A stretch of 64,000 nt of DNA, from assembly GCF_900120155.1 (NCBI RefSeq), contig NZ_LT635549.1, positions 1,353,907 through 1,417,906 of the forward strand. The letters run 5' to 3'. The notes under the pieces were generated by a model. The model was given only the letters and a program-made list of their open reading frames with translations, ran no database searches and was not told where the DNA came from. Position 1 is the stretch's first letter; the number at the start of each line of letters is the position of its first letter. Shown here in pieces: positions 24,446-38,367 of the stretch. The stretch is from Clostridium sp. Marseille-P3244 (GTDB lineage: Bacteria > Bacillota > Clostridia > Lachnospirales > Lachnospiraceae). Both the position numbers and the translations under genes were made by a program.

Positions 24446-26512
24446 ATGGAGCCTATCGCTGAAAATGCTGTAGATAAACGTGAGGAAATAAAGAACAAAC
24501 TCCGTGAGAGTTTTGACGGAAAGATCGTCCGGAAGGATCTGACGAAGAAGATCAAGGAAGGGGCAAACGTGCCGGTGTATGTGCTGGAGTTCCTTCTTGG
24601 TCAGTATTGCAGTTCCGATGATGAGTCTATCATTGAGCAGGGGGTACAGAATGTGAAGCGGATCCTGGCGGATAATTTTGTCCGTCCGGATGAATCGCAG
24701 AAAGTTCTGTCAAAGCTCAGGAAAAAAGGAAGCTATACTGTTATCGATATGATTACGGCACGGCTGGACATGAAGCGGAATATTTATATTGCAAGCTTCT
24801 CCAATCTGGGCATCGACAATGTTCTCCTGGAGGATGAATATCCGGAGAAGTTTGACCGGCTGCTCTGCGGCGGTATCTGGTGTATTGTCCAGCTTGATTA
24901 CGAGTATGTGGAAGAAGAAAAGAAGAATGGAATGCCGGTACAGATCCGGAAGCTGACGCCGATCCAGATGCCCCATGTGGAGATTGATGAACTGAAGGAA
25001 GGCAGGAAACGTTTCACGGAAGATGAGTGGTTGGATATCATGATGCGTTCGATCGGTATGGAGCCGGATACTCTGTCTGAACGTGAGAAGTGGCTGCTTC
25101 TTTTACGTATGGTTCCGCTGGTAGAGAATAACTTCAATCTGTGTGAACTGGGTCCGAGATCCACGGGTAAGTCCCATCTGTATAAAGAAATATCGCCGAA
25201 CAGTATTCTGGTATCCGGCGGACAGACCACGGTGGCCAATCTTTTCTATAACATGGGAAGGAAGACAATTGGCCTTGTCGGTATGTGGGATGTCGTTGCT
25301 TTTGATGAGGTGGCCGGTATTCATTTTAAGGATAAAGATGGGATCCAGATCATGAAGGATTATATGGCGTCTGGATCCTTTGCCAGAGGCAAGGAAGAGA
25401 AGGCGGCCTCCGCATCGATGGTCTTTGTGGGAAATATTAATCAGAGTGTGGATGTTCTGTTGAAAACTTCCAGTTTGTTTGATCCGTTTCCGCCGGAGAT
25501 GGGAACGGATACAGCGTTTCTGGATCGTATACATTGTTATATTCCTGGTTGGGAGATTCCGAAGTTTCGGCCGGAGCATTTTACAAATGATTATGGTTTC
25601 ATCACGGATTATCTGGCTGAGTTTCTGCGGGAACTGAGAAAAGAGCAGTATGGGGATGCTCTGGATGAGTATTTCCGTTTGGGAAGGAACCTGAATCAGA
25701 GAGATACGATTGCAGTCCGGAAGATGGTGGGCGGTCTTGTGAAGCTCATGTATCCGGATGGCGAATATACAAAAGAGCAGCTGGAAGAGATCCTGAAGAT
25801 TTCTCTGGAAATGCGCCGGCGCGTTAAAGAACAGCTGAAGAAGCTGGGTGGCATGGAGTTCTATGATGTGAACTTTTCTTATATTGATCTGGAAGATATG
25901 TCCGAGCATTATGTTTCGGTGCCTGAGCAGGGCGGCGGCAAGCTGATCCCTGAAGGGCTGTGCAATCCGGGACAGGTTTATACTGTATCACGGGGAAAGT
26001 CCGGAATGATCGGAGTGTTCCGTCTGGAAAGCCAGATGCTTCCGGGCAATGGCAAGCTGGAGCGGACAGGATTGGGATCTGACCGTGACGCGAAAGAATC
26101 TTCCAATACAGCTTTCAATTATCTGAAGGCGAACGGTAACAGAATCAGTGGTTCCATCAGTACAACGCAGAAGGATTACATTATCAATTATCAGGATCTG
26201 CAGGGAATCGGTATGACCGGGAAACTGGCTCTGCCGACGCTGATTGCACTGTGTTCCATCGCTTTGAGAAGACCGGTGCAGAGTTCCACGGCGATCCTAG
26301 GTGAAATCAGTATCAGCGGTACGCTGATCAAGGCGGATAACCTGGCGGATACGCTGCAAGTGTGCCTGGATTCTGGTGCAAAGAAGGTGCTGCTTCCGCA
26401 GACATCGTTTGTAGATTTTGCAACGGTGCCGCCGGAGTTGATGAGTGCGTTCCAATTAATTCCGTATCAGAGTGCGGAGGATGCGGTGTTTAAGGCTTTG
26501 GGGGTTGAGTAA
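24446..26512 (+). CDS. brxL: BREX AAA+/Lon-like protein BrxL
   Basis: A 688-aa type 1 BREX effector-class protein. GPRSTGKS at residues 236-243 is Walker A, VVAFDEVAG around 284-292 is Walker B, and ARGKEEKAASASMVFVGNIN follows as the sensor region. The C-terminal 170 residues resemble a Lon protease domain, but the place of the Lon PSAG motif reads GMTGK, so protease activity is doubtful; structural work on BrxL showed an MCM-like DNA-binding hexamer. GGAAGGAG precedes the ATG. It completes the canonical gene order, and the next gene starts two bases after its stop. Confidence 0.94.
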   Translation: MEPIAENAVDKREEIKNKLRESFDGKIVRKDLTKKIKEGANVPVYVLEFLLGQYCSSDDESIIEQGVQNVKRILADNFVRPDESQKVLSKLRKKGSYTVIDMITARLDMKRNIYIASFSNLGIDNVLLEDEYPEKFDRLLCGGIWCIVQLDYEYVEEEKKNGMPVQIRKLTPIQMPHVEIDELKEGRKRFTEDEWLDIMMRSIGMEPDTLSEREKWLLLLRMVPLVENNFNLCELGPRSTGKSHLYKEISPNSILVSGGQTTVANLFYNMGRKTIGLVGMWDVVAFDEVAGIHFKDKDGIQIMKDYMASGSFARGKEEKAASASMVFVGNINQSVDVLLKTSSLFDPFPPEMGTDTAFLDRIHCYIPGWEIPKFRPEHFTNDYGFITDYLAEFLRELRKEQYGDALDEYFRLGRNLNQRDTIAVRKMVGGLVKLMYPDGEYTKEQLEEILKISLEMRRRVKEQLKKLGGMEFYDVNFSYIDLEDMSEHYVSVPEQGGGKLIPEGLCNPGQVYTVSRGKSGMIGVFRLESQMLPGNGKLERTGLGSDRDAKESSNTAFNYLKANGNRISGSISTTQKDYIINYQDLQGIGMTGKLALPTLIALCSIALRRPVQSSTAILGEISISGTLIKADNLADTLQVCLDSGAKKVLLPQTSFVDFATVPPELMSAFQLIPYQSAEDAVFKALGVE

Positions 26513-26513
26513 T

Positions 26514-27352
26514 ATGGCATTTATCACAAAAAAAGAAGAAGGGTTATTTTTGGCTCTTTTTAATAGAGACGGATATGTACTAAATTTTAATGATAGTACT
26601 TTTAACGCTTTTACAGCTTCGAGTATTGGAGAAGCTTTAAAACAAAAGTATGGGATGTCAAAGGGAAAATCCTTGGCGGCGTATCTCAATGATGCTACTG
26701 ATGCGAATAGAACAAAGATTTTGGTGGATCTTTTTCATCATTACGAAGATGAAATGGAATATGAATTTAACAAAGACTATGAGGATGTCACCTGGTGGGG
26801 AAATAGTTCCAGATATGATGAAAAATATGCAAAGCTATACCAGAAATGTAAAGAAGTCGTAGACAGGTTGGAAGGAAGTACAGTTGTTATAACTCAGACA
26901 GCAGAAGAATTGAAGATGAAGTTTTCAAGCGAATATCTTTCCAGGCAGATTGATCTTATGGTGAAGATGCAAGTATCTGATCCGACTAACGCAATTGGTA
27001 TGGCGAAGGAACTGATCGAAAGCTGTTGTAAGACGATTTTAGATGAGAAGGGAATTGCATACACCAAGAATGACGATGTTCCGCAGCTGGCCGATAAAAC
27101 AATGGATGCATTGAATCTTCTTCCGGCAAACGTACAACCAACGGATCGCGTGCTGACGCAATAAAAGCTGTTTTGGGAAACCTAAGGGCTATACCTACGA
27201 AACTTGCTGAAATAAGAAATCCGTTTGGTAGTGGACACGGAAAGAGCGCTTCATTTAAGGGGCTTGAGGTTAGGCATGCAAAGCTGGCTGTAGGAAGCAG
27301 CATAACATTTGTTGATTTCGTCTGGAGTACATACGAGGCATCGAAGAAGTAA
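26514..27352 (+). pseudogene. Abortive-infection protein (Abi C-terminal domain), frameshifted
   Basis: The first 216 codons (FITKKEEGLFLALFNRDGYV to DRVLTQ) stop at TAA 27162-27164. The adjoining frame continues with AIKAVLGNLRAIPTKLAEIR, NPFGSGHGKSASFKG and RHAKLAVGSSITFVDFVWS to TAA 27352. Together they form one abortive-infection family protein whose conserved RN...GHGK...RHA...A C-terminus is in the second part. A one-base indel near 27130-27160 explains the split; no classic slippery heptamer is seen. It starts just after brxL and was probably an accessory phage-exclusion gene. If the break is a sequencing error the gene is whole. Confidence 0.75.
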
Positions 27353-27354
27353 GT

Positions 27355-27398
27355 ATAAAGAAAAAGATCCATATGCGGCGTAGGTCGCAGATGGATCT
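27355..27398. terminator. Terminator between the Abi gene and the leftward HTH-like gene
   Basis: AGATCCAT(A)TGCG (27365-27377) pairs with CGCA(G)ATGGATCT (27386-27398). On the minus strand it is followed by TTTTTCTTTAT, right after the stop of the 27406 gene. Confidence 0.75.
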
Positions 27399-27405
27399 CG
27401 TAACA

Positions 27406-28110
27406 TTAGATACGGCTTACGGTGTCCATATATTCGTCAAAGATCGGGCGAAGGGTAAGGATCCAGCCGTAAAGTGTCCGGTACGGTTTACCGAGAATGA
27501 CGGAAGCTTCCTTAAGGGTGTGCTCATGCCCGAGAAGTTCCACCAATTCCGTGTATTTACTGTATTTCGGATGTTGTACCTTGATAAAGCGGATCAGGCC
27601 ATATAAAAGTTCCATGTAGTTATCCGCCTGATTGAGTGGGTACGGTGATGCGGGATCAAAGGGGGCCTCATTTCCATGGTCATCAATGACGGTGAGGGTG
27701 GAAAAGAAAACCTTGCCCTTTGTTGATTTGAAGGATCTGTAATACTTACATTTGGCGCAGTCATTCATGATGGTTTTCGGAGCGGTGCCGCCTTCCTTGT
27801 ATTCAGGGTTTGGGATTCTGCAGGGGCAAAATCTGGATTTACCGCCTGCTCCGCCGATGAGGCAGCGGTTTTCCTGTTTGTAGCGGTATTCTTCCATCCA
27901 TTGATCCCTTTTGAAGGTGTCGTAGGTGGATTTATCAACTTCCAGCTTGATAGCCGGAACTATTTCGCCTTCAACACGCATCTTGGAGAGAGAAGTGCCG
28001 ATGCGCTCCTGTTCGGAGGCGGCTTTGTACTGGCGAATGCCTTCCTCATCGGTTTCAAAGAGTACATAATACTTTTTGTCGCTGGTTTTCTCAGAAGTGT
28101 ATTTATTCAT
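27406..28110 (-). CDS. Cys-rich, HTH-like hypothetical protein
   Basis: A 234-aa protein I do not recognise. The middle carries cysteines spaced like a metal site: ENRCLIGG, RFCPCRIPNPE and NDCAKCKYYRSF. The C-terminal 60 residues contain ELLGHEHTLKEASVILGKPY and RTLYGWILTLRP, which read as a helix-turn-helix. It may be a DNA-binding regulator from the phage or island. The ATG at 28110 has AAGGAGAATAAC before it; six codons upstream another ATG is possible. The 284 bp upstream, to the mazF stop, hold a 12-bp inverted repeat and no gene. Confidence 0.65.
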   Translation of the reverse strand: MNKYTSEKTSDKKYYVLFETDEEGIRQYKAASEQERIGTSLSKMRVEGEIVPAIKLEVDKSTYDTFKRDQWMEEYRYKQENRCLIGGAGGKSRFCPCRIPNPEYKEGGTAPKTIMNDCAKCKYYRSFKSTKGKVFFSTLTVIDDHGNEAPFDPASPYPLNQADNYMELLYGLIRFIKVQHPKYSKYTELVELLGHEHTLKEASVILGKPYRTLYGWILTLRPIFDEYMDTVSRI

Positions 28111-28145
28111 GTTATTCTCCTTTTTCATGGCGATTGCCTGAAATC

Positions 28146-28270
28146 GGAGGATGCACACTGCTGAGACTGTCCTTGCTGCTGGCCTGAAAAAAGGCACACA
28201 AACAAAGAGGTAAAGCACAATGTTTCAGATGGATCCTGCGGATCTGGCCAAAACGGTATGTGCATCCTCC
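28146..28270 (-). repeat. 12-bp inverted repeat bounding a 125-bp leader
   Basis: GGAGGATGCACA (28146-28157) and TGTGCATCCTCC (28259-28270) are perfect complements. They lie upstream of the 27406-28110 gene in its likely leader and could close a long stem. The region 28111-28394 has no coding frame I can support. Confidence 0.5.
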
Positions 28271-28394
28271 TGCTTATGCGCGCTTAGATCAAAGCAATCA
28301 GATTCAATTTTTAAAGTGCTGTGTTGTTATGGTTGGATCATTGATCCAGTGTATTGGGTGGGCGGATTTTGTACATGGTGAAAGACTCCTGCGG

Positions 28395-28769
28395 CTACGC
28401 GAAGATATTGTCCCTCAGGTCAAGGGATACCTTGAGACCCTGATTGAAACGGATTTCGTCTTCTGGTCTTAATGTATCTACAACATCGATGATGTCATCA
28501 CGATCAATCGTCATGATCTGTCCGCACTTGATCATTGCAGGTTTGTAGTCAAGACCGGCATACCACTGGATCGGTACATTGGTTCTGATGTCCAGGCGTT
28601 TCACCTTGGATGTGATGTAGCAGATGATCACGCTGTCGGAATAACGGTTTCCCATGTTGTTCTGACAAACGACAGCATAATGGTCGCCCTGCATGATGTG
28701 ACTTCCGGCTGAGCCGGGGAAAGGGTTCTTTACGAACACGATAGAATTACGTTTAATATCTTTTTTCAT
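28395..28769 (-). CDS. PemK/MazF-family toxin-like endoribonuclease
   Basis: A 124-aa member of the MazF/PemK family, sequence-specific mRNA interferases. Family features are NSIVFVKNPFPGSAGSHIMQ, the core GDHYAVVCQNNMGNRYSDSV, ITSKVKR and KPAMIKCGQIMTIDRDDI. AAGGAGAT precedes the ATG. No MazE-like antitoxin is encoded on either side, so it is an orphan or is controlled by a distant or unusual antitoxin. It is divergent from the three-gene ATPase operon. Free-standing phage-borne PemK-like proteins are common and some may not be toxic. Confidence 0.8.
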   Translation of the reverse strand: MKKDIKRNSIVFVKNPFPGSAGSHIMQGDHYAVVCQNNMGNRYSDSVIICYITSKVKRLDIRTNVPIQWYAGLDYKPAMIKCGQIMTIDRDDIIDVVDTLRPEDEIRFNQGLKVSLDLRDNIFA

Positions 28770-28830
28770 ATTCGAAATCTCCTTGTCGCTGATGGACTCT
28801 CATTTACTCTGTGACTGTCCCCCGTCGAGG

Positions 28831-28874
28831 ACCTTCCTTCGAAGGTGGCGCAGGATAAAAAGGTTCTTTATCCT
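28831..28874. repeat. Two hairpins in the mazF / three-gene-module intergenic region
   Basis: ACCTTC-CTTC-GAAGGT (28831-28846) and AGGATAAA-n7-TTTATCCT (28852-28874) are perfect. They lie in the 214-bp divergent intergenic region (28770-28983), which must hold both promoters. Several GGTTTAT repeats lie nearer to 28984. Confidence 0.5.
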
Positions 28875-28983
28875 TTGCTGATAGGAGTTTCGGGTTTATA
28901 AAGTTTGAGGTCAATATCCCTAAACAGGGCAAAATGGCTTTATAAGGTTTATTAGGTTTATTCTTTTTGAAAGGGGATAAAGA

Positions 28984-29889
28984 ATGGGTGAAATGAACAT
29001 TCCCTTCCTCTGTGGAGGCACCTTTTACATCCTGCTTTTGCAGGCATTAAAGAAAGACAGGCGTATCCGCCTCAATGATCTGGATGGGTATAAAGCAAAA
29101 GAAAAAGCGATTAACGATGTTACCTGCCTGAAGGGGTTAGTAAGAACGTTTTATGATTTTAATGAGCATTTTTCGGACAGTACCTTCACTGCTCATAAGA
29201 ATCAATATAAGTTGTGTGAAAAAAACAGCACAGACTGGCTGCGGTTTGAGACTCAGTATTTAGTCGATGCGTATGATAAAAAGGTCAGAGACAATTACGC
29301 TCTTGCGCTGGAGGAAATGGATAGCTTTATCGATGCTTTTATTGATGATGGTGATCTTGGAAAGAAGCTGGTCAGAGCACTGCTTGAGGTTATTGATTTG
29401 GACAGAACGATAGATGATGATGCCGAATTTGTGGTACAGACCGATGGCAGAGTAATAGATAAAAAGGGACTTTTAAAGCTTTCTAACATTGGAGCAAGGC
29501 CGTTTCTGTTGTCTGTATGGCACTTTATCATAACGAAACGTGGATCGGAAAACACTTTGGGTGCCGAAACTGTTGGCCAATGGCTGCACCATAAAACAAG
29601 CCAAGCTCCTTACAAATATGTAGGTACTGTTGGAGAGCGTTACGCTTTGGATAAGGAAATATCGTTTAAGAAGGTTGTGACTGACTCTGTAGATGAATCT
29701 GGAACACCGGAAAGCACAGAATATACGGATTCAGATAATAAGGCGAAAGAGGATCGGAGCGATGAATATTGTGAACAAAGAGAAGCTGGAGGACAGGGGA
29801 CAAATCAGATTTTGAATGCTCAAACAGTATTCAATCAAAGAGCAGAGAAGATCGTGAATATTGAGCATGTAGAACACTTACAGATATAG
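28984..29889 (+). CDS. Unrecognised 301-aa protein, first gene of a three-gene ATPase module
   Basis: The protein begins MNIPFLCGGTFYILLLQALK and has a mostly helical body of about 200 residues, including ARPFLLSVWHFIITKRGSEN. A polar Ser/Asp/Glu-rich linker (about 240-275) leads to a C-terminal tail containing NQRAEKIVNI (residues 284-293). The same motif is near the N-terminus of the next protein. There is no catalytic motif I can name and no membrane segment. AAAGGGGAT precedes the ATG, and the next gene follows after 12 bp. The architecture (globular domain, flexible linker, short shared motif) suggests a subunit that docks to a partner. I have an unverified impression that its N-terminal region recurs next to ATPases in other Firmicutes. 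Confidence 0.75.
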   Translation: MGEMNIPFLCGGTFYILLLQALKKDRRIRLNDLDGYKAKEKAINDVTCLKGLVRTFYDFNEHFSDSTFTAHKNQYKLCEKNSTDWLRFETQYLVDAYDKKVRDNYALALEEMDSFIDAFIDDGDLGKKLVRALLEVIDLDRTIDDDAEFVVQTDGRVIDKKGLLKLSNIGARPFLLSVWHFIITKRGSENTLGAETVGQWLHHKTSQAPYKYVGTVGERYALDKEISFKKVVTDSVDESGTPESTEYTDSDNKAKEDRSDEYCEQREAGGQGTNQILNAQTVFNQRAEKIVNIEHVEHLQI

Positions 29890-29901
29890 GAGTAATCAAT
29901 C

Positions 29902-30546
29902 ATGGCAAATGAGATACAGAAGACCGGCCCTGCAGGTCTTTTAAATAATGTAGCAGGAGTAAATCAGCAGGCAGAGAAGATTATTAATGTGAATCGCGCG
30001 GATTCTATCACAACCGGAAATATCACCAACAATATGTATTTTGCAGCCACGGATCAGAGGCAGGCAGTAATCTCCGGAAATTATGGAACCAGTCATGAAT
30101 ACTATAATCTCTTTGTGCAATTTGAAGAGACATTTTATGATCAGGGACATTTTTATGTGACTAAAGATCGTGCATTGAATTCCAAACTCACATCAGACTA
30201 TATACGGGATAAAGTCAATGGGTTGGAGCCGGAGGCAATTGAACAGATAAAAACATTTCCTGCCATCTTCTGCTCCGAGAATCATGAAATGGGGAAAACC
30301 GATGATGATCAGATGGCATACTATGGGCTGGTTACGGATGTTAAAGTCCAGGATAACGGGATCAAGATATATTACAGAGTATTGAATGCACTTCAGCAGA
30401 AGATTCTTAACGAGAACTTATTTGATCTTGGGATAGATGGTAATGATAGATTCAATGAGTTGAATCATACTCATTGGGCAATCAAGAGAATCGATCTGGT
30501 TACGACATTAAAAGAGATAGGCGTTTCTGTATTCACTCTGTCTTAA
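29902..30546 (+). CDS. Unrecognised 214-aa protein, second gene of the module
   Basis: The N-terminus carries NQQAEKIINV (residues 21-30), matching the tail of the preceding protein, then an Asn-rich turn (TTGNITNNMYF). The rest is one domain with FPAIFCSENHEMGKTDDDQM, AYYGLVTDVKVQDNGIKIYY and NHTHWAIKRIDLVTTLKEIG. Alternating strands suggest a beta-rich fold. I recall similar F-P-A-x-F...Y-x-G-x-x-T-D...THWA-x-K blocks in other bacterial conflict-type proteins, but cannot verify it. AGGAG precedes the ATG. The gene lies 12 bp after the first and 14 bp before the ATPase gene, so the three are surely co-transcribed. Confidence 0.75.
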   Translation: MANEIQKTGPAGLLNNVAGVNQQAEKIINVNRADSITTGNITNNMYFAATDQRQAVISGNYGTSHEYYNLFVQFEETFYDQGHFYVTKDRALNSKLTSDYIRDKVNGLEPEAIEQIKTFPAIFCSENHEMGKTDDDQMAYYGLVTDVKVQDNGIKIYYRVLNALQQKILNENLFDLGIDGNDRFNELNHTHWAIKRIDLVTTLKEIGVSVFTLS

Positions 30547-30560
30547 AGGAGGCATTGCTA

Positions 30561-32948
30561 ATGGCGGAGAAACTGGTTACAGGTATACAAGAACTGACAA
30601 TATCGTCAGCGACATACCACGGGGTAAAAATCAATCCTACATACGTAAATTACTTTTTTGGAAACAATGGTGTAGGAAAAACAACTATTGCAAGAGAGAT
30701 AGCGAAGCTGAAGAGGCCTGCAAACGAATTGTCCGGTGGCGAAGAGCCAAAGGATGTTCTTTTCGAACCGGGAAAAACGCACAGGGACTTTAACTTTCTT
30801 GTATATAATGATGATTTTATCCGGGAGAATTTCCGTCAGTTAGAACATCTGCCAGGTGTCTTCATGATTGATAAAGAAGGTATTAAGCAGGAGGATGACC
30901 TAAATGCCACAAAGAAAGAAAAAGACGATGTGGATCGGGAATATGGAGAGCTTCTTAAACAGAAAAAGCTGAAAGAATCCGTGCTGACAACCATGGGAAC
31001 TACGTTAGAAAATGATTGTTGGAATCTGACAAAAGCGATCAGAGAAAAGTTCTCTGAGACTCAGATGTCTGGCACTAAGACAAAGAAAGGGTTTCTGTCA
31101 AAGATCCGGACAGTGCAGGCGCCTACCGGTCACGATGAAGATGAATTGAAAAAACTGTATGATACGGTATTCGATCGGAATGCAAGAACATATAACCTCT
31201 TTAAACGGATTTCTGATACAGAAGTGATGGATACAGTTCCTGGATTGGAATTGCTTTCAAAACGTATTGTTAGCAGTAGCGATACGGATTTTGCAAGATT
31301 TATAAAAGCACTCAATGCAACGGACTGGGTTCGTCAGGGACACGAAAAATATCATAATACGCCCGACGGTAAATGTCCTTATTGTCAGCAGAAGATGCCG
31401 GTGACTTTTGAGAAGGATCTGGCGGATTGTTTTGATGAATCATATCAGCAGGAAGTCAGTGCTTTGGGGCAATTACTTCAAGCGTATAAAACAGCCGGTA
31501 ATAATCTTTGGAGAGTTCTTCAAGATAACCTTCAGGATGTATATCCCAAAATAGATCCGACGGAATATCGCGATAAGATGACAATTCTGAAGAATGCCAT
31601 TGGTGCAAATATCCAGATTATCGAACAGAAAATCAAGGAACCAAGTAGCGAAGTGCTTCTTGATCCCATTACACCTTACTTAGAGGAATTGAATGAGCTT
31701 ATTGTTGGATTCAATATTCAGATAAAAGAGAACAACGACATTGTTAATGCAGCAAGAACCAAAAAGAAAGAATGTACTGAACAAGTATGGGAATTAATGG
31801 CATTCCGGGTAGGGGATACCATTGCCAAGTACAATTCTGATCTTGAAAAAGTCTTGGATGATCAGAAAAAAATAGACGATGCGGCAAAGAAAAAACAAGC
31901 TTATGCTATGTCGCTTGCTGAAAAAATCAATGAGCTGAATAAGCATACCGTGAATACAGAAGAAGCAATCGCAAACATGAATAAGATGCTTAGAGATTCA
32001 GGATTCCAAGGCTTTAGTATTCAGGAACATCCTGCCAGCAAGAACCAATATCAGATTGTTCGAGAAGATGGTGCGGTAGCGGACAGGCTGAGTGAAGGTG
32101 AAAGAAACTTTATCGCATTCCTGTACTTCTGTAATTTGGTTCATGGCAGCGGTTGTACTCGAGATGCCCAAGTTATAATTACGAATCATGGAGAAGAGAT
32201 GATCACGGATGGCCGTGATATGCGTGATAAGATAGTAGTAATCGATGATCCGGTTTCCAGTATGGACAGCAGCACCTTATTTATCGTTAGTTCTCTGGTG
32301 CGGCAGATGATTTCAATCTGCCTTAACAATGTCACATTAGGAGAAAAGCCAGAGAAGGGCGATTATATAAAGCAGATATTTATTCTGACTCATAACGCAT
32401 ATTTTCATAGGGAAGTAACAGTGAACCAGGAAAAGAACTATCTGCGAGTATCCTTTTATTTGATCACGAAGTATGACAATAAGTCTGTGATTAAGCACTG
32501 CATTACGAAAAACGAAGCTGCTCCTTCAGAAAAGAAAAATTATAATCCAGTGCAGAATTCTTATGCCGCATTGTGGACGGAATATAATGAAGTTAAGAGT
32601 TCTATTACATTGAAGAATGTGATCCGGAGGATTCTGGAGTACTATTTTATCCAGATCTGCGGCTATGATGGGCATACACTTCAGGATATCATTCTGGTAA
32701 AGAATCGTCATCGGTTTGTGAAAGTAATTGATGAATCTACAGGGGAGGAAGATACAATTGAACTTCGCATGGTGTCGTCTATGATCAATTACCTTGCGGC
32801 TGATTCGTTTGGAGTAAATGAAGGTCTGCATTTTGTTGAGGATAGTATCGCACCGGAGATTTATAAGGATCTGACAAAGAGGATATTTGAAGCAATGGGG
32901 CAGCCACAGCATTATCAGATGATGTCGTCCATATTTGTGTATGAATAA
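30561..32948 (+). CDS. AAA_13 (RloC/PrrC-like) ABC-type ATPase
   Basis: A 795-aa SMC/Rad50-like ABC ATPase of the AAA_13 class, which includes the anticodon nucleases RloC and PrrC. GNNGVGKT (34-41) is Walker A, LSEGERNF (510-517) the ABC signature, VVIDDPVSSMDSS (Asp562-Asp563) Walker B and LTHNAYFHRE (His611) the switch histidine. A long helical middle contains KCPYCQQ (Cys272-Cys275), a zinc-hook-like CxxC. The C-terminal domain has NVIRRILEYYF, giving Arg689-x3-Glu693, and a His757, spacing reminiscent of the PrrC nuclease triad. I start at ATG 30561 behind AAAGGAGG. Its operon partners are not those of PrrC, so it probably powers a different multi-subunit system. Confidence 0.88.
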   Translation: MAEKLVTGIQELTISSATYHGVKINPTYVNYFFGNNGVGKTTIAREIAKLKRPANELSGGEEPKDVLFEPGKTHRDFNFLVYNDDFIRENFRQLEHLPGVFMIDKEGIKQEDDLNATKKEKDDVDREYGELLKQKKLKESVLTTMGTTLENDCWNLTKAIREKFSETQMSGTKTKKGFLSKIRTVQAPTGHDEDELKKLYDTVFDRNARTYNLFKRISDTEVMDTVPGLELLSKRIVSSSDTDFARFIKALNATDWVRQGHEKYHNTPDGKCPYCQQKMPVTFEKDLADCFDESYQQEVSALGQLLQAYKTAGNNLWRVLQDNLQDVYPKIDPTEYRDKMTILKNAIGANIQIIEQKIKEPSSEVLLDPITPYLEELNELIVGFNIQIKENNDIVNAARTKKKECTEQVWELMAFRVGDTIAKYNSDLEKVLDDQKKIDDAAKKKQAYAMSLAEKINELNKHTVNTEEAIANMNKMLRDSGFQGFSIQEHPASKNQYQIVREDGAVADRLSEGERNFIAFLYFCNLVHGSGCTRDAQVIITNHGEEMITDGRDMRDKIVVIDDPVSSMDSSTLFIVSSLVRQMISICLNNVTLGEKPEKGDYIKQIFILTHNAYFHREVTVNQEKNYLRVSFYLITKYDNKSVIKHCITKNEAAPSEKKNYNPVQNSYAALWTEYNEVKSSITLKNVIRRILEYYFIQICGYDGHTLQDIILVKNRHRFVKVIDESTGEEDTIELRMVSSMINYLAADSFGVNEGLHFVEDSIAPEIYKDLTKRIFEAMGQPQHYQMMSSIFVYE

Positions 32949-32950
32949 AA

Positions 32951-32986
32951 ATAACACCGCCAGGGCAGCAGCTCCGGCGGTGTTTT
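32951..32986. terminator. Bidirectional terminator between ATPase module and phage polymerase
   Basis: AACACCGCC (32953-32961) pairs with GGCGGTGTT (32976-32984). A-rich DNA on the left and TTTT on the right serve both converging genes. Confidence 0.85.
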
Positions 32987-32989
32987 ACG

Positions 32990-34993
32990 TCAACTATCCT
33001 TTTGATAAAAATCGCACTGATATCCATCTCCGCGGATCAGGATGCCCGTCATCCAGTCCGGAGATCTGCTCATGATGCCGCAGAGGCTCTGCACAGAGAC
33101 CTCCGGGCTGCATTCGATGATCACCTCATCATGAACATGGCCGACGATCTGGCAGAAGGACAGGTTCCTCATAGCAAAGCACAGGAGATCCCGGGAGATT
33201 GCCTGAACGATGTTCTCCACGAATTTCGGACCGTAAGATTCGATCCTTTCCCATTTTTTTGTGGCGCCGACCCCTTCATAGGTGACGGATTCTCCGCCGA
33301 AACGGTTTTCCCCAATACGGGGTTTCACATAGGCAAGCTGCCGGCCGGAGGGAAGGGTGATGAAGAGCATGCCGCTTTTGTAGGAGAAGCGTATGCCGCG
33401 GACTTCGGTTTTGATCCGCTGCCGGACGGTTGTCTTTACGGCATTATCTACATCCCACCAAAAATGTACGATGTTTGGATTAGCCTGACGCCAGGCGTTG
33501 ACTAATGGCTGAAGTTCTTCTTCCTGCAGACCATTATCCAGGGCACCCATAGATTTTAGGGCGCCTACAGATCCGCCGTATCCGAGGGCAAGTTCAGCGA
33601 TTTTGCCTTTTTGGCGGAGATGACTGTTGATACCGTGTTTTTCCACGGGAACGCCGAACATCTGAGATGCAGAAGCGCAGTAAATATCTTTTCCTTCAGC
33701 AAATACTTTAGAACGCCATTTTTCACCGGCGATATGCGCGAGGACTCTGGCTTCTATGGCAGAATAATCGCTGACAATGAACTTGCATCCCGGTTTTGGG
33801 ATAAAAGCCGTGCGGATCAGCTGCGAGAGCGTGTCCGGGATGTCGTTGTAAAGAAGGTTCATGGTATCGTAATCTCCGGAACGGACAAGGGCGCGGGCTT
33901 CTGCGAGATCCGGGATGTGGTTCTGTGGAAGGTTCTGCAGCTGGATCAGACGGCCGGCCCATCTGCCGGAACGATTGGCACCGTAGAACTGAAACATGCC
34001 GTGGGCACGTCCGTCAGAGCACATGACGTTCTGCATGGCCTGATATTTGCGGACGGAGGATTTTGCAAGCTGGAGGCGGAGTTTCAGGGCTTCTGTAATA
34101 TTACCATCCATATTGCCAATGGAATCTTTGACAAACTTCGCAACTTCTTTCTTGCCGAGTGATTCCATTTCAACGCCCCGATCGGAGAGCCATTCTTTCA
34201 TTTGCTGAACGCTGTTCGGATTATCAATCCCTGTGATATCCCGCATTTTTGACATGAGGGAAGCTCTGGATCTTTCATCAAAGGCGATGGCATTCGATAC
34301 GAATTCTGGGTCAATCATGATGCCGCGGTCATTGATTTCCTGATCCAGGTGATATTCATCCCAGACAAAATCAGGGACAGGGAAACGTGCGAGTTTCTGC
34401 TTGATAGCTATTTCTACTTCCACATCACGGTGGTTGTATTCCTTAAAGAGGATCCATTTTTCACTGTCATGCTGGGGAAGGTTCCGGGTGCGTCCGCCGT
34501 TTGCCTTGGTAGGTTTGCATGGCTTGCAGAAATAGCGGATCAGGTCTTTGCCTTCCTTCAGCTTCTGATCCTGTAATTTCAGGACAGCACCGACGCCTTC
34601 CAGTGAGAGGGGAAGCCCCATGTATGCGGACCATATCATGGTACATTTCCATGAGGAAGGATCCAGATATTTTGAGGCCGGATCCTCAGGAATGCTGTAT
34701 CCGCGGAAGTGTTCCGGGCAATGCCGATTCAGCCAGTTGGAGAGGCAGATACGCTCGAAGGAAGCGTTGAAAGCCCACTTGGTTATATTTTCATCAGATA
34801 GTGCTGCAAGGATTTCTTCCGGAATGGTATCGCCGCAGGCCAGGTCATATACCTTAACAGGGCCGCCATTCACGGAGACTCCGAAGAGCAGTATCTCAAA
34901 ATAGTCAGACTCAGCGTACTTGTATGCACCGCATTTGGTGATATCGATGTCGCTGTAAGTCTCCAGGTCGATTGACATTTCTCTGATTTCCAT
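32990..34993 (-). CDS. Phage family A DNA polymerase
   Basis: A 667-aa phage replicative polymerase. The N-terminal exonuclease-like domain starts with SIDLETYSDIDI (Asp-x-Glu). Polymerase motif A is IVSDYSAIEARVLAHIAGE, motif B is KGKIAELALGYGGSVGAL and motif C is VGHVHDEVIIE, with the paired acidic residues present. Length is normal for the phage DNA polymerase I group found in Firmicutes siphophages. AAAGGAATA precedes the ATG. It is the last gene of a leftward early block with DUF2800 and DUF2815 genes. Confidence 0.95.
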   Translation of the reverse strand: MEIREMSIDLETYSDIDITKCGAYKYAESDYFEILLFGVSVNGGPVKVYDLACGDTIPEEILAALSDENITKWAFNASFERICLSNWLNRHCPEHFRGYSIPEDPASKYLDPSSWKCTMIWSAYMGLPLSLEGVGAVLKLQDQKLKEGKDLIRYFCKPCKPTKANGGRTRNLPQHDSEKWILFKEYNHRDVEVEIAIKQKLARFPVPDFVWDEYHLDQEINDRGIMIDPEFVSNAIAFDERSRASLMSKMRDITGIDNPNSVQQMKEWLSDRGVEMESLGKKEVAKFVKDSIGNMDGNITEALKLRLQLAKSSVRKYQAMQNVMCSDGRAHGMFQFYGANRSGRWAGRLIQLQNLPQNHIPDLAEARALVRSGDYDTMNLLYNDIPDTLSQLIRTAFIPKPGCKFIVSDYSAIEARVLAHIAGEKWRSKVFAEGKDIYCASASQMFGVPVEKHGINSHLRQKGKIAELALGYGGSVGALKSMGALDNGLQEEELQPLVNAWRQANPNIVHFWWDVDNAVKTTVRQRIKTEVRGIRFSYKSGMLFITLPSGRQLAYVKPRIGENRFGGESVTYEGVGATKKWERIESYGPKFVENIVQAISRDLLCFAMRNLSFCQIVGHVHDEVIIECSPEVSVQSLCGIMSRSPDWMTGILIRGDGYQCDFYQKDS

Positions 34994-35053
34994 AGTAAAT
35001 ATTCCTTTATTTGAGAAAGGCAGCAGGCATGAAAAACCGCTGCCATTTGTATT

Positions 35054-35644
35054 TTATTCTTCCGGTATCGGTTCGTTTTCCTTCTTGTACCGGAGAAGAC
35101 TGTAGCTGATATCGGTAAGTGATTTACGGATTTCTTCATGCCATTCCGGCGCTTCATCTTCATAGGCAGTATTGAAACGGTTGATAACCGGATGGCCGCA
35201 CCAGTTGTTATCCTGAAGATCCTCCATGTGCTCCTGCAGCATCCTGTACTCATTCCAGAGGATAATTGCCGGCGCATCCATGGCCAGAAGGCGCGTAAAT
35301 CTGGCATTCCTCATACGGACGCGGTTCAGAAGATAAAGGATATCGTAAAGGGTATCGAAGTCTTCTGTATTCATGACGATATCATCAACCTCAATATCGG
35401 TCAGAGATACATCCGGAAGATCCAGAGACTGGCGGTAATAGCAGACTGCTTCTGATCCATACAGGTAGAATTTTGGAAGTTTGCTGCTGTTCTTCGTGTT
35501 TTCGATGAGCCGTAATCCATCTGCATCCGGAAGCAGGAACTTCCGGTTGGTCAGAAGATCCACTGCGATTTCCCTTTGGGAGACCGTCATATCATTCAGG
35601 GCGCTGCGGAGGACGACAGGCTTGATAAGTGTGATGTTTTTCAT
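35054..35644 (-). CDS. Hypothetical phage early protein
   Basis: A 196-aa protein beginning MKNITLIKPVVLRSALNDMT, with VDLLTNRKFLLPDADGLRLI and LDLPDVSLTDIEVDDIVMNT. It lacks membrane segments and known motifs. AAAGGAAC precedes the ATG. Its place between the DUF2815 gene and the polymerase gene suggests a role in phage DNA replication or its control, by position only. Confidence 0.75.
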   Translation of the reverse strand: MKNITLIKPVVLRSALNDMTVSQREIAVDLLTNRKFLLPDADGLRLIENTKNSSKLPKFYLYGSEAVCYYRQSLDLPDVSLTDIEVDDIVMNTEDFDTLYDILYLLNRVRMRNARFTRLLAMDAPAIILWNEYRMLQEHMEDLQDNNWCGHPVINRFNTAYEDEAPEWHEEIRKSLTDISYSLLRYKKENEPIPEE

Positions 35645-35727
35645 ATCATGTTCCTTTCTTTCTTAAGAAGGCAGCGGCAGCCATATTTTGATGACTGCCG
35701 CCGGATAGAGTGTTACAGGTTTTCAGC

Positions 35728-36291
35728 TTAGCTCAGGAAATCATCATCGTCTTCGGTATTGAAATCATCCTCAGCCCTGGACTTACCGCCAAGAGGTTCG
35801 CCGTCGCGGATCTTCTGAAGGTTGTTCAGGCCGCAGGCAATGCCTTTGTTCCCGTTGGTGTTGAAAGCATACAGATTGATACTGGCCCTGCCGTACACGC
35901 CGGAATATACTTCGGAGCGGTCAATGATCTGCTGTCTGTCCGCGTCTACGATACCGGGCGCTGTAGAAGAGTTGGCGTTGATGAAGTAGGCGTTGGCGTA
36001 GACCGGATCATCGGGTCTTTCCAGGTCGCCGTCACGGAGCGGAGTCTTCAGGGTGGACAGCGCCGGTACGGACTTGCTGTTGCCCTTCAGCTTGCTCTGG
36101 CCTTCCTCGTAAGCTGCCTGGATGGCGGCCTTGATTTTGTTGATGGTCATGGTATCCGACTTCGGAATGATGAGGCTGACGCTGTATTTCGGCGTACCGC
36201 CGTTGATGGACTTCGGATCCCAGACGTTCGCGTAGGACCATCTGGTGTTTACGCCTGTGATAACTTTTGTAGGATTAACAAATTTTGCCAT
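35728..36291 (-). CDS. DUF2815 phage protein (ssDNA-binding-like)
   Basis: A 187-aa DUF2815 protein. The start MAKFVNPTKVITGVNTRWSY and the block GTPKYSVSLIIPKSDTMTIN are diagnostic, and the tail is acidic (AEDDFNTEDDDDFLS), as in single-strand DNA-binding proteins. The family is thought to be the phage SSB. AAAGGAG precedes the ATG. It sits between DUF2800 and the polymerase, the usual order in Firmicutes phages. Confidence 0.9.
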   Translation of the reverse strand: MAKFVNPTKVITGVNTRWSYANVWDPKSINGGTPKYSVSLIIPKSDTMTINKIKAAIQAAYEEGQSKLKGNSKSVPALSTLKTPLRDGDLERPDDPVYANAYFINANSSTAPGIVDADRQQIIDRSEVYSGVYGRASINLYAFNTNGNKGIACGLNNLQKIRDGEPLGGKSRAEDDFNTEDDDDFLS

Positions 36292-36305
36292 AATATTTTT
36301 CTCCT

Positions 36306-37427
36306 TTATTCTTGAAAGTCTTCGATTGCTGTGTTTATTGCCGGCCGTTTATCGGTGTCCGGCACCAGTGTCGGCTTGCCGGGCGGTTTCGTGATAAGAC
36401 CACCGAGAAGCTCTTCAAATCTCTTCTTCCCGAGAAGGGAAGTCATTGCCGTGATCCCGAGAAGTTTCTTCTCATAAGGGTCGAATCCATTGTTTGTGAC
36501 GACTTCTGCTACGGCGGCTTCATCTGTGAAACGCCTTGTGGATCTGCCTTCAACAACCTTGAAGCCTGGATACTGTGTTCCGCTTAAGGCTGACTGAAGG
36601 GCAAATTCCTTTACGTCTCCGGCCCATGCGATGAGTTCGTCAATCCGGGGGAGAATGGCAGAAATCTCTGCCTGATCCAGATTTACCGGCATCTCAAAAT
36701 CATATTTTGCAAGTTCCAGATTGTATTCCGCGCGCTTGCGGCAGGTAGCCTTGACTGCGCAGAACTGGCAGTGATCTCCGGCCTGGAAGTCGCCCTCGCC
36801 TTTGATGGCAAGTTCCGCTGCAGGTTTCAGCACCTTCTCAGCCCATGCAAGCAGGTCGGTCTTGCTGATGTCCCAGGAACTGATATTTCCGCGGCGGGGC
36901 TGGAAGATCGTCATACGGACTTCTTCTATATCATAGATGCCATCGTAGATATCCAGGGCGCCGAGGGCGTAACACATCATCTGGGGATTGTTCTTAGCTT
37001 CTACGAGAATTCCGACGCCGTATTTGAAATCGATGATGTGAAGGATCTTGTCAGCAACGATCAGGCAGTCGCCGGTTCCGAAGCCTTGCGGTACCCATCT
37101 GGAAAAGTCCAGCCGCTGTTCGATCAGGATCTGCGGATCGCTGCAGAGGGTTTTGACTTTCTGCAGCTGCTCGTATACGTAGGAACAATACTGGTCGGAG
37201 CAGTCATCCATCTCTGTATCAAAGTAGTCCAGGTTCTCCGTAGGATCAGGGGAATCGCGCCCCAGGGCTTTCAAGACCTTGTACTCACAGAGTGCATGGG
37301 CGTCAGTACCCTGCTGGGCGTATGGACTGGACTTGTTGGCTTCCTTTGCGCAGAGTTTCGCGCTTGGTGGACAGGCAAGCCAGCGGTGTGACGATGATGC
37401 TGAGAGGATTGCGTGTTTACCCGGCAT
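36306..37427 (-). CDS. DUF2800 phage protein (RecB/Cas4-like nuclease fold)
   Basis: A 373-aa DUF2800 protein. HAILSASSSHRWLACPPSAK is the typical N-terminus, and GTGDCLIVADKILHIIDFKY has the Asp...Asp-x-Lys of PD-(D/E)xK nucleases. QAGDHCQFCAVKATCRKRAE is the iron-sulfur-like Cys cluster of Cas4/AddB-type proteins. It probably processes phage DNA ends during replication or recombination. I start at ATG 37427 behind GGAGG; this overlaps the end of the preceding gene by 11 bp, implying coupling. Confidence 0.9.
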   Translation of the reverse strand: MPGKHAILSASSSHRWLACPPSAKLCAKEANKSSPYAQQGTDAHALCEYKVLKALGRDSPDPTENLDYFDTEMDDCSDQYCSYVYEQLQKVKTLCSDPQILIEQRLDFSRWVPQGFGTGDCLIVADKILHIIDFKYGVGILVEAKNNPQMMCYALGALDIYDGIYDIEEVRMTIFQPRRGNISSWDISKTDLLAWAEKVLKPAAELAIKGEGDFQAGDHCQFCAVKATCRKRAEYNLELAKYDFEMPVNLDQAEISAILPRIDELIAWAGDVKEFALQSALSGTQYPGFKVVEGRSTRRFTDEAAVAEVVTNNGFDPYEKKLLGITAMTSLLGKKRFEELLGGLITKPPGKPTLVPDTDKRPAINTAIEDFQE

Positions 37428-37800
37428 TTCCGATTGCCTCCACTTCAGCTGCAAGAGCCGCATAGTTTCTGGGGTCTACATCGGTAAGGCTTCCACCGTT
37501 GCCGTACTTTCTGACCAGGTTTCTGACATCCACTTTATAGATGCCGTCTGCCTCATTGGCTTTCGCTGCAAGCATGGCTCTGATCTCTTCCTTCGAATAT
37601 GTTTTCTCCGGTATCGATTCAGGCTGCGTTGTTTCCGGGGCTGCCGGTTCCTCTGTGGGAGGAAGTGGCTTTGCCGGAGCGGCTGAAGGGTCATTGTCAG
37701 ATGAATAGAACGCTTTTAGTGCCCTGGCCGTCTCTGTTAGTGTTTCGCCGCATTCGATCAGATTGTCCAGCAGCATGGACAGTTCATTCATTTTGCTCAT
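37417..37800 (-). CDS. Hypothetical phage protein with Pro-rich linker
   Basis: A 127-aa protein with a helical N-terminus (MNELSMLLDNLIECGETLTE), a Pro/Glu-rich linker (PAKPLPPTEEPAAPETTQPE) and a C-terminal part with EEIRAMLAAKANEADGIYKV and VRNLVRKYGNGGSLTDVDP, which resembles a SAP/rho-N-like nucleic-acid-binding segment. AAGGAG precedes the ATG. It overlaps the DUF2800 start and the small upstream gene, so it belongs to the leftward early operon. Confidence 0.75.
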   Translation of the reverse strand: MSKMNELSMLLDNLIECGETLTETARALKAFYSSDNDPSAAPAKPLPPTEEPAAPETTQPESIPEKTYSKEEIRAMLAAKANEADGIYKVDVRNLVRKYGNGGSLTDVDPRNYAALAAEVEAIGNAG

Positions 37801-37936
37801 CTTGTCTTTCTCCTTCCGTCATGATCAGGCCTGCGAGGCGCTTAGCGATGACACTGATGATGATCAGGAAATCCGAGATTTCTTCATCCGTCGGCATGCT
37901 GCGCCTGCTAGGTCTTGTGTCTGGTTGACTCTGCAT
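37784..37936 (-). CDS. Small (50-aa) phage early protein
   Basis: A minus-strand frame starting at ATG 37936, eight bases after AGGAGG, encodes about 50 residues: MQSQPDTRPSRRSMPTDEEI and SDFLIIISVIAKRLAGLI are visible. It overlaps the next gene by 17 bp, in the manner of coupled phage genes. One hydrophobic helix is present but with charged flanks. It is likely the first gene of the leftward early operon. No family is recognised. Confidence 0.6.
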   Translation of the reverse strand: MQSQPDTRPSRRSMPTDEEISDFLIIISVIAKRLAGLIMTEGERQDEQNE

Positions 37937-38367
37937 TCTCTTTGCCTCCTTGTCTGTATTTTTCTGAGCGGCTGTGTGCCTCTCTGGTGCTGTAAGGAGT
38001 TTTGGCAGCGAATTTTTTGTGACTTCCGAGGGAATTTTTTCGGAAGCCGCCGCCGGATTTACTCCTCTGATGTCGTAAGGAGTTTGGAACGGCAGATTTT
38101 TGAATTGGATTTTGGATTTTCTGTGGAATGCGTTTCGCGCTTATAAAAGGGAAGAGATTTCAAACGGGGATTTTTCTAAAAATTTTTTGATCAGGTCAAA
38201 AAACAGGTAACCGAAACTCCTTGGATCAATAGAAGGCGGTCAGAGCGCCTTACTACTGTCGAAGGGAGAACGGTCCAATGGAATATGAAAAAGATGTTTT
38301 TACGAGTGGCGCATGCCGGTGGCGAAGATGCCGGCAGGAACAGAATTTAAGACAGGAGGCATAGCGA
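37937..38367. promoter_or_regulatory. Divergent early control region of the prophage
   Basis: This 430-bp stretch separates the leftward and rightward early operons and should hold both promoters. It contains two imperfect direct repeats of about 38 bp (37981-38018 and 38064-38101, sharing GTAAGGAGTTT), an inverted repeat CTTCCGA/TCGGAAG around 38031-38048 and a possible 28-codon leader ORF at 38278. I could not pick a convincing -35/-10 pair. No repressor gene is adjacent. Confidence 0.45.
38278..38364 (+). CDS. Possible 28-aa leader peptide before the primase gene
   Basis: An ATG at 38278 preceded by GAAGGGAGAACG opens a short frame (MEYEKDVFTSGACRWRRCRQ then EQNLRQEA) ending at TAG three bases before the primase start. 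It could be a leader peptide that couples translation to the primase, or a chance frame. Confidence 0.3.
   Translation: MEYEKDVFTSGACRWRRCRQEQNLRQEA

Follow-up and report, generated by a model that had tools for sequence, protein, structure and literature searches.

The stretch of DNA analysed here, referred to as the window, consists of 64,000 nucleotides of Clostridium sp. Marseille-P3244 (assembly GCF_900120155.1, contig NZ_LT635549.1, positions 1,353,907-1,417,906), whose genome is 2.97 Mb in size; window coordinates are used throughout. It holds three genes, denoted g1, g2 and g3, that all lie on the plus strand with gaps of 12 bp (g1/g2) and 14 bp (g2/g3), and the tightly spaced operon described by an earlier sequence-only reading of this stretch was thus confirmed. 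The start of g3 was taken to be the ATG at 30561; a longer open reading frame (ORF) from the TTG at 30474 would overlap g2. The trio and its features are as follows.

28984..29889, plus strand: g1, 301 aa; helical domain at about aa 1-232, low-confidence linker and C-terminal tail motif; proposed effector
29824..29886, plus strand: putative C-terminal pairing motif of g1, its last 21 aa, TVFNQRAEKIVNIEHVEHLQI
29902..30546, plus strand: g2, 214 aa; N-terminal tail motif followed by a compact alpha/beta domain; proposed adaptor
29959..30009, plus strand: putative N-terminal pairing motif of g2, VNQQAEKIINVNRADSI
30094..30522, plus strand: folded domain of g2, aa 65-207; relatives are joined to TIR domains (E. 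coli plasmids, a viral contig)
30561..32948, plus strand: g3, 795 aa; AAA_13 / PDC-S06 Rad50-like ABC ATPase
31374..31385, plus strand: CPYC zinc-hook-like motif of g3, aa 272-275; profile match to solved Rad50 fragments (E=1e-4)
32625..32639, plus strand: R689-x3-E693 of g3, remnant of a former anticodon-nuclease triad; the column of the triad His holds Phe in the window protein

In order to describe how often the three genes occur together, 162 loci with a single g1 were clustered by the identity of their g1 domains (90%), which gave 75 clusters. All three genes are present within the locus stretch examined in 51 of the 75 clusters, and 40 of these 51 have a single g2 that is separated from g3 by an HTH_17-type helix-turn-helix (HTH) gene of about 66 aa. 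In the remaining clusters g1 is fused to NACHT (8), precedes a NACHT gene (2), is part of g1-g2-HTH ahead of an SNF2 gene (3), is fused to g2 (1), or occurs alone or with g2 but without g3 in the stretch examined (10). As g1, g2 or early g3 searches supplied the loci of this census, it is biased towards carriers of g2. A count with the g3 alignment as the sole query is free of this bias, its 68 contigs not having been made non-redundant: g2 lies at most 3 kb upstream of g3 in 66 of 68 viral loci, and the gene preceding g2 is g1 in 57 of them, an unrelated protein denoted g1' in 8 (L195 being assigned to g1' by its domain model) and a g1 split by transposase genes in one (L212). Of the two g3 loci without an upstream g2, one (L189) shares its contig with a g1-g2-HTH-SNF2 locus. 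A run on one strand in the genomes G193, G194 and G269 consists of g1-g2-HTH, SNF2, DUF4391, other genes, a DNA methylase, type III Res, a DUF2130 gene (440-441 aa) and g3, every Pfam name having been verified in one or more of these genomes. Because g1-g2-HTH and g3 are kept at the two ends of this run, the trio stays together even around a restriction system.

Since the three genes recur together, their arrangement is not due to chance, and we regard it as very likely that they form a functional unit. The two dedicated partners and multi-subunit machine proposed by the sequence-only reading are borne out by this co-occurrence. The same reading had held that its claim would fail if the small genes were found mostly without the ATPase, and the majority of g1 clusters have it. 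The trio is rare: of 398 genomes sampled from the phylum, 5 have g2 and 8 have g1, the latter including the window's own genome and three with distant relatives of g1 described below. The excisionase-like HTH_17 gene (64-66 aa, e.g. L114:7587-7781 and many phage loci) was rejected as a core part, being absent from the clade of the window. Six loci (L020, L099, L101, L102, L105 and L107) hold a tandem pair of g2, each copy with its own tail motif, and a 12-kb dairy Lactococcus plasmid, pUCCL628C (L113), carries g1-g2 and a 62-aa ORF without g3. The type III-like restriction-modification (R-M) genes between g1-g2-HTH and g3 in L123/L254, L124/L255 and L125/L256 recall PrrC in its R-M locus.

A common short motif is carried by the C-terminal 20-40 residues of g1 and by the region preceding the g2 domain; in the window it reads NQRAEKIVNI in g1 and NQQAEKIINV in g2. 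The motif varies widely between loci, and its two copies within one locus co-vary, as in PNYGTINIT / PNYGTVNIT of L034, GSGDIYSDIGTLN / GSGDIYSNIGTIN of L109 and QFNNATIETIN / QFNNPQINTMN of L074. From 197 complete pairs, 71 non-redundant ones were retained (64 with g1 and 7 with g1'), leaving out incomplete ORFs, loci with fewer than 25 residues before the g2 domain and loci that do not have exactly one upstream g1 or g1'. Subsets were then formed according to identity of the g2 domain (below 70%, n=48; below 50%, n=31; below 42%, n=24). Cognate tails score higher than non-cognate tails in all sets, with z=22.0 (71), 19.0 (48), 14.1 (31) and 13.0 (24); below 50% identity the cognate score is 52.0 and the non-cognate score 28.1 (n=31, p<=0.0002). 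The cognate tail is best in its row in 18/71, 21/48, 17/31 and 15/24 cases, where near relatives compete in the larger sets, and was best in 15 of the 18 divergent loci of an earlier test. The three controls (g2 domain, g1 domain and pre-tail stretch) have z values of -0.0 to 3.0 over all sets, and values of 0.1, 1.4 and 2.3 were obtained in the set of 31. The g1' row L199 scores 24 with a split upstream ORF, its real tail not having been used. In a shuffle test, 42 of 50 pairs scored above at least 99% of their shuffles.

The aligned motifs have a median length of 22. In the 59 of 71 pairs scoring at least 40 they are rich in Asn (18.6%, background 5.5%), Gln (8.7%, background 3.4%), His, Thr, Val, Gly and Ile, whereas Glu, Lys, Arg, Leu, Cys and Trp are scarce, with Arg, Cys and Trp nearly absent. 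Both tails have a predicted local distance difference test (pLDDT) score below 50 in single-chain models. These comparisons of tail sequences make it likely, to our judgement strongly so, that g1 and g2 tails pair specifically. In the passages of PMC12261475, PMC8086366 and PMC7889193 on bacterial amyloid signalling sequences, one motif is at the C-terminus of an effector and the other at the N-terminus of a NOD-like receptor (NLR), the two being encoded by adjacent genes, and the descriptions there are tied to NLRs. The same arrangement of matched motifs, at the C-terminus of the proposed effector and the N-terminus of its partner in adjacent genes, is found here. Because composition and placement resemble those sequences, the tails may by analogy polymerise in an amyloid-like manner rather than dock one-to-one, for which we would give slightly less than even chances. 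In L212:2332-5324, where transposase genes (IS3-like by eye) interrupt g1, the part encoding the tail remains open, and its resemblance to the g2 tail persists.

The proteins that carry these tails have no credible match in Pfam, NCBIfam, PADLOC or PHROGs, consistent with the sequence-only reading, which could not place either protein. Neither g1 nor g2 matches a Pfam family at E<=1 or a PHROG at E<=0.01. NCBIfam gave nothing for g1 and only CpxP for g2 (E=0.063), PADLOC gave nothing for g2 and only WYL for g1 (E=0.0096), and one relative of g2 matched phrog_4962, of unknown function (E=0.0033); all three matches were set aside as chance. No credible match was obtained either when profiles of g1 and g2 were searched against the sequences of the PDB, the best E values being 0.73 and 0.037, respectively.

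More can be learned from the proteins with which these domains are combined. The fusion of g1 to NACHT was found in all four such proteins scanned (L033, L035, L057 and L059), three of which also have SNaCT14. In L046 and L049, g1 is a separate gene upstream of a NACHT gene, so that an NLR-type partner is present, and the N-terminus of the NACHT protein matches the g1 tail with scores of 46 and 52, reached by 8 and 0 of 2000 shuffles, respectively; these two pairs of tails are nearly identical and hence do not count as independent. Three distant relatives of g1 (L118, L119 and L120) end in CTD11 (partial profile matches, E 5e-8 to 2e-5), and in L118 and L120, whose neighbours were scanned, they are followed by MC7 and then by an ATPase with DUF2326, as in ABC three-component (ABC-3C) systems. 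Judging by these domains, the distant relatives are effector subunits of true ABC-3C systems (CTD11-MC7-ABC). The g2 domain has matches at E<=0.01 in 61 plasmid records, 51 of them of Escherichia, and 17 of the 20 listed have a TIR annotation; it is also joined to TIR in the viral contig L111.

The replacement of g1 by g1' in 8 of the 68 g3 loci leaves the tail in place. When g1' and g1 profiles were compared with hhalign, the sole match reported was a 28-column tail, and in L247 the g1' tail VVNQYGENCVHIDHV faces TVNQYGDKSVHIDTV of g2. No credible Pfam family was found for g1'. The g1' of L247, the only one tried in PHROGs, matches phrog_6948, a family of 372 positions and unknown function (E=2e-11); this membership implies that other phage proteins contain the g1' domain as well. 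An extra helical insert between domain and tail is, by eye, common to g1 of L013 and g1' of L225, and what looks like a similar stretch lies ahead of the NACHT domain of L046. Because g1 is placed N-terminally in NACHT and CTD11 proteins and is replaceable, we consider it reasonably probable that g1 is the effector. The linkers of fused forms contain fewer Asn, Gln and Gly residues than the tails of split forms (4-6 vs 5-14, with overlapping ranges), a weak hint that the tails serve to unite separate chains.

The third protein, g3, belongs to the AAA_13 ATPases (Pfam E=4e-117) and matches the PADLOC profile PDLC04890 of PDC-S06 with E=6e-203 over aa 9-790 of 795 (profile positions 2-723 of 732); it also matches a PHROG of unknown function (E=1e-71). 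The segments that we take to be Walker A, the LSEGE signature, Walker B and the CPxC hook (C272/C275) are invariant in 10 aligned sequences including that of the window. The ABC motifs and CxxC hook-like site noted in the sequence-only reading therefore hold, and in its motif residues g3 resembles an RloC-type ABC ATPase with a CxxC hook. In the part of PMC2610378 that deals with the RloC active site, the triad is given as Arg-x3-Glu-x36-52-His, and Ala at any of its three positions abolished activity in vivo. In the g3 family the column of the triad His holds His in only 4 of 79 rows and Phe in the window protein, where two of the rows are the window protein (one copy stemming from its own genome locus) and one row is a gap. 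The Arg is kept in 71/79 and the Glu in 68/79 rows. In contrast to the family, His is present at the aligned column in each of the four highest-scoring outside homologues. All 13 outside AAA_13 proteins compared show R-x3-E-x36-52-H in their last 260 residues, three of them via a non-aligned R-x3-E (judged by eye), and Ser precedes the His in 11; the window g3 does not match this loose pattern. The outside set was derived from matches in 28 of the 398 genomes, from which 11 neighbourhoods were taken and 10 whole-length proteins used, with 3 plasmid proteins added.

Because the triad His is gone, g3 is, on the evidence of the alignment, probably not a nuclease of the RloC type and not a working RloC. 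This part of the sequence-only reading was not upheld, and g3 as a stand-alone RloC was rejected. In a FastTree phylogeny, for which, as for the triad analysis, only identical sequences were removed from the family rows, the g3 family forms one clade (80/80 rows, support 0.93) whose sister consists of three His-bearing AAA_13 proteins of R-M neighbourhoods. One of these lies at L287:1822-9000 in a type I R-M run of HsdM, HsdS, AAA_13 and HsdR without g1 or g2, and the other two are plasmid-borne near R-M genes. The simplest reading would be that an in-cis nuclease was given up upon the gain of g1 and g2.

As for the genomic setting, the sequence-only reading had placed the module between bacteriophage exclusion (BREX) genes and a prophage and had taken this position as evidence of defence. 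Positions 27366-38555 of the window, comprising the trio and phage replication genes, align with the Lachnoclostridium contig L011 at 96.5% and, in two pieces, with the Lachnospiraceae contig L012 at about 75%, both of which carry the trio. The seven BREX-side ORFs tried have no match in the left flanks of L011 and L012 (about 5.5 kb each). Because the block is shared by both contigs without such matches, the module sits inside a prophage-like block; the argument from position does not stand, and linkage to BREX, not being common to the two relatives, was rejected. The trio is phage cargo and BREX is a mere neighbour in a variable region. The module is adjoined by the following gene.

32990..34993, minus strand: DNA polymerase A gene; homologues near g1 loci in phages

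In 7 of the 8 g1-bearing phage or prophage loci compared, this gene and two neighbours, of 187 and 385 aa, have homologues with identities of 48-84%. Phage records with g1-g2-HTH-g3 are Streptococcus phage Javan105 and two labelled Ca. Heliusvirales; in a third record of the latter type g1 is at the end of the record. Where the window has BREX, L011:1-5432 has genes of 680+ and 1128 aa, which suggests that the left flank is a variable region. A PemK/MazF-like toxin gene (28395-28769, minus strand) lies beside the trio and is kept in both nearest relatives. After brxL, an ORF of 217 aa (26511-27164, plus strand) has weak matches to DFF40 (E=0.003, under the Pfam cut-off) and AbiJ (E=6e-4).

We think it somewhat probable that the phage-borne trio acts as a conflict system of the abortive-infection type that is switched by its ATPase, with g2 as adaptor, g1 as swappable effector and an amyloid-like pairing of their tails that involves no NLR. 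The computed support consists of gene linkage, loss of the His, cognate tail matching, the swap of g1 that keeps the tail, and N-terminal g1 in NACHT fusions. From these we infer the defence role, the direction of signalling, the amyloid character, the trigger and the effector chemistry as follows. A Rad50/RloC-like ABC ATPase without the catalytic histidine, g3 would sense infection and switch its state, the trigger most likely being DNA ends, a disturbance of replication or a failed restriction step. The folded domain of g2 would take the signal from g3, upon which the N-terminal tail of g2 would expose its short Asn/Gln/Gly-rich beta motif and nucleate or dock g1 via the matching C-terminal motif, probably as a beta-solenoid or an amyloid-type stack. 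The clustered g1 domains would then arrest or kill the cell. In its most specific form, which we put forward only tentatively, this would be NLR-free bacterial amyloid signalling, borne by temperate phages, from a nuclease-dead Rad50-like ATPase through an adaptor to the templated polymerisation of interchangeable effectors (g1 and g1'), with g1 also serving NACHT receptors.

Several results weigh against this proposal. The cognate tail is not best in its row in 14 of the 31 divergent loci, the pre-tail control reaches z=3.0 below 42% identity, and 8 of 50 pairs failed the shuffle test, among them L065, L087 and L099, which look cut or mis-started. The model of g1 is of moderate quality (mean pLDDT 66.7), and neither catalytic residues nor a family name was found for g1, which is called an effector from its position. 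In 34 of 79 g3 family members the loose pattern R-x3-E-x36-52-H is still present, partly via other residues, and for this reason the argument for loss of the His rests on the alignment column and not on the pattern. The amyloid step has a competitor that is almost as likely: ordinary one-to-one beta docking, in which the tails are co-folded solenoid rungs of a fixed complex without templating. Short tails of very low confidence in both single-chain models would suit such docking, as would the single g1-g2 protein of L100, which has no motif-like linker. However, composition and placement at the C-end of an effector and the N-end of its partner in adjacent genes resemble bacterial amyloid signalling sequences, and some loci have two g2 copies with tails that are similar by eye.

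The roles of the genes could also be assigned differently. Were g3 the toxin, g1-g2 would be its silencer or guard, with the tails holding the silencing complex together; passages of PMC2610378 and PMC3710099 describe such silencing of PrrC by the restriction enzyme EcoprrI. The sisters of g3 beside R-M genes (the HsdM-HsdS-AAA_13-HsdR run and two plasmids) and its largely kept R-x3-E fit this, but the catalytic His in only 4/79 rows, the g1-NACHT fusions without g3 in the stretch examined (8/75 clusters) and the joining of distant g1 relatives to CTD11 do not, and we consider it unlikely. A divergent member of ABC-3C, with g1 as effector with a C-terminal domain (CTD) and g2 as middle component (MC), is a little less doubtful, having the identical three-part logic and distant g1 relatives that are CTD11 effectors next to MC7. 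It is opposed by the lack of CTD and MC matches in g1 and g2, by the ATPase (AAA_13 vs DUF2326 in L118 and L120), by the size of g2 (214 aa vs 84-86 aa) and by a LmuB match on g3 far below that of PDC-S06. That the three are accessory phage genes with a role in replication or lysogeny rather than defence would agree with g1 loci adjoining phage polymerase and replication genes and often having the excisionase-like HTH gene. This we judge quite improbable, as g1-g2 is also found on a Lactococcus plasmid and beside R-M genes, and g1 is common to NACHT proteins and the g2 domain to TIR proteins.

In the open-licence PubMed Central literature (listed matches and passages; subscription literature and preprints were outside the search) neither g1 and g2 with their tails nor the three-gene unit was found to be described. 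A passage of the amyloid-signalling review PMC7889193 asks whether NLR-independent signalling amyloids exist in fungal and bacterial pathways, and the proposed conflict system makes this question testable with three genes and short peptides. If the proposal is true, tail-to-tail signalling works outside the immune receptors where it is known. The trio also suggests a route from an RloC-like suicide nuclease to a switch for separate, swappable effectors, and it connects g1 with NACHT and ABC-3C systems, and the g2 domain with TIR proteins. Compared to the sequence-only reading, the tail motifs, the g1 swap, the g1-NACHT and g2-TIR fusions and the PDC-S06 identity of the ATPase are additions.

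Finally, the trio can be compared to known systems. That reading had also held that a match to a named system would remove its novelty; g1 and g2 have none, whereas g3 matches PDC-S06, a candidate system of PADLOC, along almost its entire length. The S in this name presumably denotes a single-gene candidate. PADLOC gave no PDC-S06 partner model for g1 or g2, while here g1 or g1' and g2 are regular partners, so that an ATPase listed as a candidate in a defence database is part of a three-gene unit in this clade. In the part of PMC11514479 concerned, PDC-S06 appears as a table entry for a strain. With RloC/PrrC, g3 has in common the AAA_13 ATPase, the CxxC hook and the C-terminal R-x3-E; it differs in the near-absence of the triad His from its family and in having two regular partners. 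The likeness to ABC-3C and Lamassu, as far as these are described in passages of PMC10586767, consists of an effector, a small middle gene and a Rad50-like ATPase. The resemblance to ABC-3C pointed out by the sequence-only reading is therefore a real link as regards the distant CTD11-MC7-ABC effectors, but the trio itself has no CTD or MC match (Pfam, E<=1) and none at the level of LmuB, which gives E=2.5e-13 on g3 compared to 6e-203 for PDC-S06; membership in Lamassu was rejected on this score. The tail motifs may stand in place of the CTD.

In passages of PMC7889193, PMC8086366 and PMC12261475, NLR amyloid signalosomes are likewise built on pairs of short motifs that match each other, one C-terminal and the other N-terminal, in the products of adjacent genes. 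The trio differs in that the partner of g1 is g2 with an ABC ATPase and not an NLR, in that g2 and g3 of the window have no NACHT match (Pfam), and in that g1 has no Pfam match (Pfam may or may not hold a Bell model). The NACHT proteins with SNaCT14 differ from the window trio in the same respect, the trio having no NACHT partner, but g1 is their N-terminal domain or, as a separate upstream gene, carries a tail that matches theirs.

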